From the NCBI GenBank assembly GCA_014695325.1, contig JACJNZ010000080.1:1-64000 (forward strand): a stretch of 64,000 nucleotides of DNA, given 5' to 3'. This document shows, in pieces, positions 31,929 through 54,122 of the stretch; position 1 is the stretch's first letter; every line of letters begins with the position of its first letter. The position numbers were made by a program, and so were the translations under genes. This stretch comes from Cyanobacteria bacterium FACHB-502. GTDB taxonomy: Bacteria > Cyanobacteriota > Cyanobacteriia > Elainellales > Elainellaceae. The notes under the pieces were generated by a model. The model did no database searches. It was not told the DNA's origin and saw nothing but the letters and a program-made list of their open reading frames with translations.

Positions 31929-31965
31929 TCTCAAAGTTCCCCGAAGTTGGGGGATTTAGGAGGCG
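31929..31965. repeat. Dispersed GGGGGATTTAGGGGGC-type repeat, copy 2
   Basis: TCTCAAAGTTCCCCGAAGTT followed by GGGGGATTTAGGAGGCG. It lies in the 325-bp spacer between the CHAT and ureD genes, which otherwise holds no supported gene. Confidence 0.75.
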
Positions 31966-32141
31966 ATGTTGAACCTCGAACACTTCTCAGACAGCTTCTC
32001 CCTCTTACGTTACGTTAGGCGATCGGGTGATTCCGTACAAACGCGCAAAAAATTAATGCAGGACAGCTTCAGGATTTGATCCATTGGTTTTAGGGTGAGG
32101 TTCGCTAAAGTAATGCGTGATGTGAACGACCAACCTCACCC

Positions 32142-35142: not shown

Positions 35143-35180
35143 CCGCTGAAGGGATTTTGGAGCAGTGTTCTAGTTTCTAC

Positions 35181-35220
35181 ATCGCCTTCTAAATCCCCCA
35201 ACGCTGGGGGACTTTGATCC
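35181..35220. repeat. Dispersed repeat, copy 4, opposite orientation
   Basis: CTAAATCCCCCAACGCTGGG followed by GGACTTTGATCC, the reverse complement of the other copies, with a short CCCCCA...TGGGGG stem. It lies between convergent ubiD and the glycosyltransferase and could end both transcripts. Confidence 0.75.
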
Positions 35221-44100: not shown

Positions 44101-45347
44101 AACTGAGACTGGCTTTCCTGAAGCTGTGCCTGAATCTGCTTGCGTTCTGCTTCGCGGTGCTTTGCCATGGTAATGTCCCGCATCACGCCAATCATGCCGC
44201 TCGCATTGCCATCGCTGTCTTTGAGAACGGTGACCGAGGATTCGACAAAGAGCCGATCACCCTTTGCATTAAAGTGCAAGATCTCGCCGCGCCAGTACCC
44301 CTGGGTGATCAATGTTTGAGCCGCACGCTGCCGATCGCCCGGATGAAGCCACTCGTACTGCACGACCTCAGCCAGCGATCGTCCGACAACTGCCTCGGCG
44401 GGCAAGCCATACAGTTTTGCCGCACCTCCATTCCAATAAGTGATTTGCTCTTGCCGATCCACGGCAACAATAGCATCATTCACCTGCGACAAAAGCTGAA
44501 GCTGAAAATGAAGCTGCTGCTCATATTCCTGACGGCCCGCTTCAAGTTTTTTTGCGGCAGTCATATCCAGGAAGTAGGCTGCAATCCCTGTTGAACTAGG
44601 ATAAATATGAACCGAGAACCAGCGATCGAGCGAGGGATAATATTCCTCGTATTGGGCAGGTTTTTGCGATGCGATGACGCGCAGGGCAGCACGGTATGCT
44701 TTGGTTCTCCGTAGTTCTGGAAAAATCTCCCAAACACTCTGTCCCAGAAGCTGCTGGCGCGGTTTGCCTAGAAGCTGTTCTGCCCTGGCATTAATGTAGG
44801 TATATCGCCAGTTGCGATCGATAATGATGAATCCATCAGTCGTCAGTTCAAAGAACTGTTCCAGTGGAAGCTGCTCTAGCGGCTCGGTTTCCTGGTTTCT
44901 TCCCCGATTTTGATCCTGGTCGAGATTGACTTGACTGTACCAAATCTTTTTCTGGAGCTGGCTTTGACGATCGGACTGCCGATTCTGGGCTGAATTGCTT
45001 TGGCTCAGATCTTCCTGGCTCAGATCATCCTGGTCTGGATTACCCTGCTCTAGCGTGTTTTGATAGGTGCTGTTCTGATTAATGTTGTTCTGATTGGTGT
45101 AGCAGGGCTTCAGCCAGCGAAATCGATCGCTCAACAGCATTCCCACACACGCCACCGTCAAATGTGAAGTGATCTGATGAGAAGGCGGGGAACCAGGATT
45201 CCAGAATTCATCAATGAAGGCAGTCAAAGTACGTTCAAAGACCGGATCAAAGGCAAAGGGTGAATACCGATCGCAAAGCCACGTAACCGCAGCAGAAGGT
45301 AGAACCAGACTGCCAAAGAACTGAAATTGCTGAGCAAGTTTCCACAT
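41133..45347 (-). CDS. Multi-PAS hybrid sensor histidine kinase
   Basis: 1404 residues. The N-terminus (1-80) has weakly hydrophobic segments, then a Gln/Asn-rich linker (about 82-140). Six PAS domains follow, the first near 160 ([20 protein letters not shown]) and the last near 870 ([20 protein letters not shown]), with a long coiled coil near 680-760. HisKA carries His1014 in [12 protein letters not shown]. The HATPase has [15 protein letters not shown] and GLGLGLAIV, with a Ser/Pro-rich insertion between them. The receiver domain carries Asp1329 in [13 protein letters not shown]. Downstream targets are not visible. It is the largest of four sensor kinases between 41 and 54 kb. Confidence 0.93.
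41811..41900. repeat. C-rich low-complexity insertion in the hybrid kinase gene
   Basis: On the plus strand GGCGTAGGGGGTAGGGGGTG through CATCTCCCCATCGCTCCCCG. It encodes the acidic/Ser/Pro-rich stretch ([25 protein letters not shown]) between the HATPase N-box and [12 protein letters not shown]. An equivalent stretch exists at 47821-47970 in the next kinase. Confidence 0.75.
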
Positions 45348-45466
45348 GAAAGGCGAGCCAGAAGACTTATCTCTTTTTATAGATGATTCTTCGCTAGAAG
45401 AGTTTACTGTGAATTTAAGTCAGCCTGTAGACAGAGCAGTTTAGCGATGCAGTTTAGCGATCGATC

Positions 45467-45526
45467 TTAGCGAGGCAGCACGGTAAAGAAAACAAGCCAA
45501 ACAGTTAAAGCCATGACGGTAAACAT
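45467..45526 (-). CDS. Candidate 19-residue membrane micropeptide
   Basis: The ORF reads MFTVMALTVWLVFFTVLPR, one hydrophobic helix with a charged end. AGGAG lies eight bases before the ATG, the best ribosome-binding match in this gap. It is too short for ordinary gene calling. Function is unknown; chance is possible, since a 19-codon ORF is not rare. The strong ribosome-binding site and fully hydrophobic content argue for translation. Confidence 0.4.
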   Translation of the reverse strand: MFTVMALTVWLVFFTVLPR

Positions 45527-45749
45527 AAGTAGCTCTCCTGATGCTGGATAAATCTGATGTTGAACAAATAATGCTGGTTTGGTGGAAATGAGAAGCCGAA
45601 GTCGAAGCAATTTTTTAAGCGATCGTTTTTTAGCAACCGTTACTTGCTCAAACTTGCTCGCTTAAACCTAACTAACCCAAAGTGTTACTCGCGCAACCCA
45701 TACTACAGTGAAATATAAGTAGTGAAATACAAGCAGGGAGATAGAAGGA

Positions 45750-45875
45750 CTAACCCAACAGAATGCGGTTGTAAACGAACAGAGACAAAACTGGAATTGC
45801 GATCGCTATGGTCATCAGAGCCATAGTCATGGAAGTCGTTATTAAGGCAGTTATTAAAGGAAAAGTAATTAGCAT
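45750..45875 (-). CDS. Candidate 41-residue membrane micropeptide
   Basis: From the ATG at 45875 the peptide starts MLITFPLITALITTSM and continues TMALMTIAIAIPVLSLFVYN to end in RILLG; an internal ATG at 45830 would give 26 residues. Almost the whole peptide is hydrophobic with a basic C-terminal end, like a single-span membrane subunit. The ribosome-binding site is weak. It lies 220 bp upstream of the 19-residue ORF on the same strand, in a 793-bp gap with no other gene. Confidence 0.3.
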   Translation of the reverse strand: MLITFPLITALITTSMTMALMTIAIAIPVLSLFVYNRILLG

Positions 45876-46140
45876 AGCCGTAAAGTGATTTCCAGAATGC
45901 TGTTATTTTGTGGGATTACCCTGCTGCTGCACCTCTGCCCGACTGCTCAATCGTGCCTCAGTCTGTGGTGATAAATGTTTCTACGTCAGCATTCGTTTGC
46001 TCTTTATTTAGAACCAGCGATCGGATCTGTCTAATGGTCAGGCTAATGGCCAGGAATGCAGTATTTCATTCGTAATATAGAGCACATTTGATTAAATTTT
46101 CGCTAAAAAAGAATTAGTGTAGCTGAGAGGGCAGTTCACG

Positions 46141-48666
46141 GTGACTGCATCCTACAACCCAATTCTGGTCATTTTTTCGATCCTGTTGGCGATTGTTGCA
46201 GGTTATACTGCGCTCGATCTGACTGGACGAGTCAATGCGTCGGCGGGGGTTGCTCGAAAACTCTGGCTGGTGGGTGGCGCAGTCGCACTAGGCGTTGGCA
46301 TCTGGGCAATGCACTTCATCGGGATGCTGGCGTATCGCCTGCCGCTGCCAATGACCTATGACGTGCCGATCGTTTTATTTTCGCTGGTGGTGGCAGTCGT
46401 GGCTTCGGGCGTGGTGCTGTCGATCGCCAGTCAGCCTAAACTCGATTGGAAACAGCTTGCAGTTGGCAGCCTAATCTTGGGAACGGGTATTGCATCCATG
46501 CACTACACAGGCATGGGAGCTTTGCGGCTGGCAGCAATTCCGCGCTATGACTGGCGATGGGTGCTGCTGTCGATGCTGATCGCTATTGGAGCATCGTTTG
46601 TGGCTCTGCTGCTGTCATTTAAGCTGCGAAGTGCAATTAACCTGGGCGGAACGCTGCGAAAGCTGATTGGGGCGATCGGGTTAGGCAGCGCGATTTATGG
46701 AATGCACTATGCTGCAATGGCTGCCGTTCACTTTCAGCCAATGCCTACTGCGGTCTTTCAATCTGAAGAAAAACTGGAAAATTTGTGGCTGGCAGGGCTG
46801 ATCGGGTTAGCTGCGCTGGTGATTCTCATCCTGGCACTAACGGCTGCATTTATGACGCGCCGCCTTAGTGTTGAGCTTGCCAGAGCCGAGGCACTGCACG
46901 AAAGCGAAGCCCGATTTCGATCGCTCGTGCAAAACGCCTCTGACATCATTGCGGTGATCGGGGCAGACCTGCAAGTGACTGACGTAAGTTCCTCGATCGA
47001 GCAAATTCTAGACGATTCGCCGCAAAACTGGATCGGCAAAAAAGCATTTGAACTCGTGCATCCCGACGATGTGGGCAAAGCAATTCATCTGCTCCAACAG
47101 GCGATGCAAAGCAGTTCTCCCGCTGGGACGATCGCCAAAGCGCAAACCATTCAGCGAACACAGCTTCGCTTGCAGCACAAAGATGGTTCCTGGCGCGATT
47201 TTGAAGTGCTTGCCAATAGTTTGCTCAACGAACCTGCTGTTCAGGGAATTGTGATGACCTGCCGCGATATTACTGCTGCGAAGCACCTTGAAAAAATCCG
47301 CCTGCGCGTCGAAGCCGAACGAGAACAGTTGCTTGCAAGCGAGATGCTGGCACGAGGTTCCGCTGAGGTGGCAAACCGCCTCAAAGATGAGTTTCTCGCA
47401 ACCCTGTCCCACGAACTGCGAACTCCTCTCAACGCGATGATGGGCTGGGTTCAGCTTTTGCAAACCCGCAAGCTCGACGAAGCCACCGCCAGCCGCGCCC
47501 TGGAAACGATCGATCGCAACACCCGCGCTCTGAGCCGTTTGGTCGAAGATGTGCTGGATGTATCGAGCATTATTACAGGCAAACTGCGAGTCGTCGTCTA
47601 TCCGGTCGAGTTAGTTTCAGTGATCCAGTCTGCTCTCGATGCAGTGCGCCCTGCCGCAACCGCCAAACAAATCCAGCTAGAGTCCATGCTCGACCCTACT
47701 GCCGGACCCATCCTGGGCGATGCCGATCGCCTTCAGCAAATCGTCTGGAACCTGCTCGCCAATGCCATCAAATTCACGCCCAATGGGGGCAGAGTTGAAG
47801 TGAAGCTAGAGCATGTTGGGGAAAGCGATGGAGAGATGGAGAGCAGTCAAGGGAGCACAACGACTGCCGAGCATTCCTCTTCTACCTCTTCACTCCCTTC
47901 CCCCTTATCCCCTCACATCCCCATTCCCTCATCCGTTCCTTCATCCCTTTCCTCGTCCACCCCCTACGCCCAACTTACCGTCACCGACACCGGAAAAGGC
48001 ATCCACCCCGACTTCCTGCCTTATGTATTCGATCGCTTTCGGCAGGCGGATGGCTCAACGACACGCACCTTTGGTGGTTTAGGGCTGGGTCTGGCGATCG
48101 TGCGGCATTTGGTGGAACTCCACGGCGGCGCGGTCAGCGTTGAGAGTGATGGGGAAGGCAGAGGATCTACTTTTAAGGTCAATCTGCCAATTAGCAGTGT
48201 GAACCTGTCTCCTTCTGAACTGGAGCAGGGCGATCGATCGAGTCCTGTTCAGAATTCATCTAGTCAATTGTCGGTGCTGGAAGATTTGCGGGTGCTGGTT
48301 GTGGACGATGAGCCAGATGCCAGAGAACTGCTGAGGGCAATTCTAGAGCAGGACGGCGCGATTGTTGAAACCGTTGCTTCTGCTGCGGCAGCACTGCAAG
48401 CGTTGCCCCACTTTAAGCCTCATATTGTGATCAGCGACATTGGAATGCCCGAGGAAAATGGTTATGCTTTGATTCGGCAGGTGCGAGGTCTGGCGGCATC
48501 GGCAGGTGGACAAACTCCAGCGATCGCTCTGACTGCCTATGCAGGACATGAAGATTATCAGCAAGCTCTACAGGCAGGCTTCCAGCGGCACCTTGCTAAG
48601 CCGATCGATCCGGCTGATCTAGTTAAAGCTGTGGCAGAGGTAGCGGGACGGGCGTTAATTTATTAA
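46141..48666 (+). CDS. MHYT-domain hybrid sensor histidine kinase
   Basis: 841 residues. The N-terminal membrane sensor has seven helices with three MHYT-type motifs (AMHFIGML, MHYTGMG, MHYAAMA), proposed in this family to bind metal such as copper and sense diatomic gases. A PAS domain (about 260-380) precedes HisKA with His424 (TLSHELRTP), the HATPase ([24 protein letters not shown]) and a receiver domain with Asp766 (VISDIGMPEENG). The start is a GTG with GAGAGGG upstream. The HATPase contains a long Ser/Pro-rich low-complexity insertion. It is divergent from the six-PAS kinase and shares its HisKA-HATPase-REC end. Confidence 0.93.
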   Translation: MTASYNPILVIFSILLAIVAGYTALDLTGRVNASAGVARKLWLVGGAVALGVGIWAMHFIGMLAYRLPLPMTYDVPIVLFSLVVAVVASGVVLSIASQPKLDWKQLAVGSLILGTGIASMHYTGMGALRLAAIPRYDWRWVLLSMLIAIGASFVALLLSFKLRSAINLGGTLRKLIGAIGLGSAIYGMHYAAMAAVHFQPMPTAVFQSEEKLENLWLAGLIGLAALVILILALTAAFMTRRLSVELARAEALHESEARFRSLVQNASDIIAVIGADLQVTDVSSSIEQILDDSPQNWIGKKAFELVHPDDVGKAIHLLQQAMQSSSPAGTIAKAQTIQRTQLRLQHKDGSWRDFEVLANSLLNEPAVQGIVMTCRDITAAKHLEKIRLRVEAEREQLLASEMLARGSAEVANRLKDEFLATLSHELRTPLNAMMGWVQLLQTRKLDEATASRALETIDRNTRALSRLVEDVLDVSSIITGKLRVVVYPVELVSVIQSALDAVRPAATAKQIQLESMLDPTAGPILGDADRLQQIVWNLLANAIKFTPNGGRVEVKLEHVGESDGEMESSQGSTTTAEHSSSTSSLPSPLSPHIPIPSSVPSSLSSSTPYAQLTVTDTGKGIHPDFLPYVFDRFRQADGSTTRTFGGLGLGLAIVRHLVELHGGAVSVESDGEGRGSTFKVNLPISSVNLSPSELEQGDRSSPVQNSSSQLSVLEDLRVLVVDDEPDARELLRAILEQDGAIVETVASAAAALQALPHFKPHIVISDIGMPEENGYALIRQVRGLAASAGGQTPAIALTAYAGHEDYQQALQAGFQRHLAKPIDPADLVKAVAEVAGRALIY
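47821..47970. repeat. C-rich low-complexity insertion in the MHYT kinase gene
   Basis: CTCACATCCCCATTCCCTCA, TCCGTTCCTTCATCCCTTTC and similar units, encoding SSSTSSLPSPLSPHIPIPSS and more before [12 protein letters not shown]. It is about 25 codons longer than the equivalent stretch in the kinase at 41133. The flanking protein sequence is nearly identical in both genes. Confidence 0.8.
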
Positions 48667-54084: not shown

Positions 54085-54122
54085 CTTGGAAGTCCCTCAG
54101 AATTGGGAGATTCAGGGGGGCT
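54085..54122. repeat. Dispersed repeat, copy 6
   Basis: TTGGAAGTCCCTCAGAATTG followed by GGAGATTCAGGGGGGCTG, in the gap between the broken kinase and bactofilin. Confidence 0.7.

Follow-up and report, generated by a model that had tools for sequence, protein, structure and literature searches.

The closest described counterparts of the two small genes analysed here are single-helix or small hydrophobic proteins. The photosynthetic single-helix subunits PetN, PsbT, PsaM and PetL are 29, 31, 31 and 32 aa long, respectively, and Norf4, a 31-aa protein with one transmembrane segment, is conserved in cyanobacteria (PMC5126843). CydX, at 37 aa, is a subunit of cytochrome bd (PMC4325964). The peptides that we call P1 and P2 resemble the photosynthetic subunits in length class, in their one hydrophobic helix and in being encoded by stand-alone cyanobacterial genes at varying places. 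They differ in being patchily distributed and in giving no profile match to PDB chains of such complexes; searches of PDB, Pfam and NCBIfam revealed no sequence homology to the small subunits of the photosystems, b6f or NDH-1. Like Norf4, they are conserved one-helix micro-proteins overlooked by the original annotation, but the Norf4 primers (PMC5126843) read MTADQLL... and ...GSFAKGG, unlike P1 (M(E/D)...YNRVVLG) or P2 (MFEV...LP). CydX, accessory to a respiratory enzyme, is likewise a small hydrophobic peptide; no P1 or P2 locus examined has a cydAB neighbour.

In the 64,000-nt stretch of cyanobacterial DNA analysed (the window), a 793-bp gap between two sensor-kinase genes (45348-46140) contains both unannotated ORFs on the minus strand (Table 1). 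A sequence-only reading had proposed two micro-ORFs of 19 and 41 codons here, with AGGAG eight bases ahead of the shorter one, and all three elements were found in place. It had also described the products as hydrophobic single helices with a basic end. AlphaFold2 predicted one helix for the 41-aa P1 product (residues 4-40, mean pLDDT 95). When the gap was shuffled 1000 times (dinucleotide), two ATG-started ORFs as hydrophobic as P2 were obtained in 0 of 1000 shuffles (mean 0.067 per shuffle); two such ORFs are not expected from chance composition. The basic end holds for both peptides but amounts to one Arg in each (YNRILLG, LPR). The C-terminal part of the P1 frame reads ...PVLSLFVYNRILLG, and the last ~26 residues make up its conserved core.

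Table 1. Position and supporting evidence of features in and around the gap (window coordinates).
Feature	Position	Strand	Evidence
PAS-rich hybrid histidine kinase, ~120 bp downstream of P2	41133..45347	-	Pfam; orthologous neighbour in G001, G006
P2: 19 codons + TAA, MFTVMALTVWLVFFTVLPR	45467..45526	-	G001 orthologue; family A7 of 11 sequences
Shine-Dalgarno AGGAG of P2, eight bases 5' of ATG	45535..45539	-	sequence; AGGAG also at G001 P2 and second G000 copy
P1: 41 codons + TAG, MLITFPLITALITTSMTMALMTIAIAIPVLSLFVYNRILLG	45750..45875	-	G001 homologue, profile match, pS vs pN
Conserved leader just upstream of P1	45894..45979	-	74% identical to G001 over 86 nt
MHYT hybrid kinase, divergent neighbour	46141..48666	+	Pfam; absent from this position in G001, downstream of PAS kinase in G006

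G001, the sole other genome of the genus compared with the window's own genome (G000), retains both ORFs in the same order, place and strand, while the spacer around them has otherwise diverged. Its P2 (MFTVVALSIWLVFFTVLPR) is preceded by AGGAG and keeps 16 of 19 residues (84% aa identity). Between the two genomes P2 has accumulated 6.5 synonymous and 3.5 non-synonymous changes, with 45% of synonymous sites changed (dN/dS ~0.12), and together with its Shine-Dalgarno sequence it forms an 81%-identical island in a poorly conserved spacer. A 47-codon, TTG-started extension of P2 was rejected, because G001 lacks the upstream part and the ATG with its AGGAG is conserved. The G001 P1 (MLTNSLFAIAAIVVPLLSLSVYNRIVLG) spans only 28 codons against 41 in the window; the C-terminal half is kept, with pS of 0.60 and pN of 0.23 in an alignment with a one-codon gap. 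Alignment pairs the two start ATGs and shows an in-frame insertion of 39 nt in the window, so the N-terminus of the window P1 is lineage-specific. The aligned ATGs support the 41-aa start, with internal starts also possible.

The synonymous excess was seen again in independent close pairs: for P2, dN/dS was 0.06 in G008/G024, and G088/G037 differed by 8 synonymous and 0 non-synonymous changes; for P1, dN/dS was 0.05 in G288/G384 and 0.09 in G061/G037. The relatives' frames run complete from ATG to stop without internal stops, and AGGAG is also kept before a second P2 copy in G000. Thus the frame loss in relatives that would have counted against the sequence-only reading did not occur, and both ORFs evolve under purifying selection. 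Judged from these comparisons, both are almost certainly real protein-coding genes. Short ORFs are common, and the features by which the ORFs were first picked out are insufficient on their own to exclude chance hydrophobic frames in non-coding DNA. This explanation is nevertheless extremely unlikely in view of the shuffle control, dN/dS values well under 1 across several independent pairs and profile matches family-wide; the conservation data already contradict it.

P1 relatives were sought first with a DNA pattern describing the end of P1 and then with profiles. A reversed control pattern showed that P1 DNA patterns with 0-1 mismatch give a few chance matches, so we accepted only complete ATG-started hydrophobic frames or matches with a profile E-value. 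E-values of sequences already in a profile are circular, as for the window P1 (E 3e-12), itself one of the five rows of its profile, and the evidence lies in matches new at each round; many P1 and P2 matches outside the profile rows reached E < 1e-5. The P1 family was found in ~20 of 390 cyanobacterial genomes from four taxonomic families (f1, f3, f4 and f13), including G002, G006, G013, G016 and G024 from the same family as the window genome and others in f3, f4 and f13. Its members are mostly 26-31 aa and end in [VIL]YN[RK][IV]xxG (consensus M(E/D)xxLLxxxxxxxPxxSLxLYNR[VI]VxG). P2 was found in ~16 of the genomes searched, from two families (f1 and f3), as products of 19-50 aa of the form MFEVxALxLWLxxxTxLPxL (consensus MFEVxALVLWLxLFTVLPxL). 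Profiles placed it in G004, G008, G009, G013, G016, G017, G021, G022, G024, G029 and three f3 genomes, and a P2 relative lies directly downstream of P1 in G002. True P2 relatives beyond the genus were obtained by profiles alone; class-wide pattern matches beyond G000 and G001 (WLVFFTVLP, 2 mismatches) were rejected as unrelated frames, including parts of larger proteins with ...WLVFF.V.P. The most strongly conserved side chains are W10 and LP of P2 and YN..G of P1.

Plasmid matches were judged to be chance, and the viral contigs scanned gave none. Pfam, NCBIfam and PDB contained no P1 or P2 relative at permissive thresholds, and profiles A7 and A8 retrieved nothing relevant from all PDB chains at E<=10, a search of limited sensitivity for such short peptides. 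P1 and P2 are small genes whose general kind is known but which seem not to have been described before, the unnamed ORFs of an earlier survey having been compared in part. Second P2 copies occur in G000 and G002. The one in G000 (MFSVLALGFWLLLLTLMPSLPKRYPTP, with AGGAG; L232:4697-4780, G000:C85:19696) is flanked by a SpoIIIAA-like/R3H ATPase gene on one side and an IS4/5-type transposase on the other.

MgrB and SafA are kinase modulators of enterobacteria, and P1 and P2 resemble them as small membrane peptides near a sensor kinase. By analogy, P1 (with P2 in the genus) could modulate the adjacent PAS hybrid kinase by binding it or its sensor part. In G000, G001 and G006 (two genera), P1 indeed immediately precedes the orthologous PAS kinase gene, itself followed by p231, on the same strand and with 110-182 bp from the last small ORF to the kinase. 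However, the kinase link, which distinguishes MgrB and SafA from these peptides, is not conserved across the family: it was found in G000 and G001 and, for P1 alone, in G006. Every other P1 genome has a different neighbour, p231 neighbourhoods of other family members lack P1, G002 carries the P1-P2 pair without the PAS kinase, and outside the genus P2 has no link to it. P1 follows hemB in three f3 genomes, is convergent to nagZ in G013 and G024, and in 7 of 7 f13 genomes comes directly after genes for an NDH-2-type NADH:quinone oxidoreductase and a REG-2-like HAD hydrolase on the same strand (loci including L242, L243 and L247). P2 adjoins a HerA-like and/or winged-helix AAA ATPase gene in eight f1 genomes and precedes rpsL in three f3 genomes. 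Since the contexts vary, a role specific to the kinase is unlikely for P2 and weakly supported for P1, and we regard the modulator explanation as a whole as unlikely. The proposal of kinase-modulating micropeptides, made with the MHYT kinase next door, lost ground on these neighbourhoods and on the absence of that kinase from this position in G001, where the PAS kinase and p231 genes likewise lie downstream and the divergent neighbour is a CBS/GAF kinase. Searching the genome contigs for the MHYT kinase returned distant kinases only, and a motif scan of those loci revealed no P1 or P2.

The conserved leader upstream of P1 is probably a promoter or 5' UTR element. It was rejected as a third small ORF (no conserved start codon, changes mostly non-synonymous by eye, no Pfam match), and an Rfam scan of 44800-46600 gave no family at gathering score. 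The two ORFs presumably fall within the 5' part of the kinase transcript, and the P1 leader is conserved together with the opening bases of the kinase gene, so that inert peptides could form the small-ORF portion of a leader that regulates how the kinase mRNA is transcribed or translated. This we consider very unlikely, given that the same peptides, with their conserved side chains, stand beside or convergent to unrelated genes elsewhere. The sequence-only reading had also raised toxin-like peptides; hydrophobic type I toxins restrained by an antisense RNA are thus a further candidate, and P1 and P2 are indeed small hydrophobic peptides that resemble Ibs and TisB in length, hydrophobicity and basic end. 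Yet genomes carry a single copy or two at most, in neighbourhoods conserved over several genera, with strongly conserved side chains and no Rfam match in the region, and on these sequence grounds a toxin role appears quite improbable.

Three genomes have P1 and P2 in tandem (G000, G001 and G002, the last with different neighbours); outside these three genomes each is alone in its own context. Although frequently unlinked, and each frequently found without the other, they co-occur above expectation (6 of 7 P1 genomes carry P2 among 36 family genomes; Fisher p 0.005, a value that ignores shared ancestry and search sensitivity). The reading that we favour, at about an even chance, is that they are genuine tandem genes for single-pass membrane micro-proteins, most likely accessory, stabilising or regulatory subunits. 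P1 and then P2 would be translated into a hydrophobic helix with a short basic C-terminal end. A single helix that starts acidic or neutral and ends basic suggests, by the positive-inside rule, a topology that is probably N-out/C-in. Once in the membrane, the helices would pack against larger membrane proteins, as PetN, PsbT, PsaM or CydX do. Adjacency in three genomes suggests that P1 and P2 may be co-transcribed, perhaps with a shared partner. A sequence that stays constant while contexts move fits accessory membrane subunits or regulators, whereas the patchy distribution of both families, at the sensitivity used, speaks against their being core subunits of a photosynthetic complex common to all cyanobacteria. 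Small membrane subunits, a further suggestion of the earlier reading, stay the best account of the conserved single helix, the purifying selection and the families elsewhere; for P1, a candidate partner can be proposed from gene order.

Because context differs between families, no single partner is indicated, and the neighbourhoods examined point to none for P2. For P1 the best lead is the NDH-2-type oxidoreductase, its operon-like neighbour in f13, whose best PDB relatives are type II NADH dehydrogenases. That P1 is a single-helix subunit anchoring or regulating NDH-2, and that P1 with P2 forms a two-helix module placed beside the PAS kinase in some lineages, is a specific scheme that we hold to be distinctly unlikely as it stands. 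The constant NDH-2/HAD/P1 order offers a testable partner, and the pair shared by G000, G001 and G002 a testable two-subunit module. The two one-helix families, one of which includes a conserved member of 19 residues, enlarge the part of the cyanobacterial micro-proteome that has gone unseen; annotation pipelines relying on Pfam or NCBIfam would not name them, because neither library has a model.

Some further features of the region were recorded. The G001 orthologue of the PAS kinase (L084:10987-15284) reads as two ORFs of 1107 and 331 aa, and the part corresponding to window-kinase residues 892-988 is apparently repeated, which may reflect a frameshift or an internal duplication. In G006, a relative of the MHYT kinase lies downstream of p231 (L240:9112-9999), and the kinase cluster is locally rearranged. 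A short dispersed DNA repeat occurs at 31931-31968, 35177-35218 and 54090-54119 of the window and also in G001 (L084:5840-5881).
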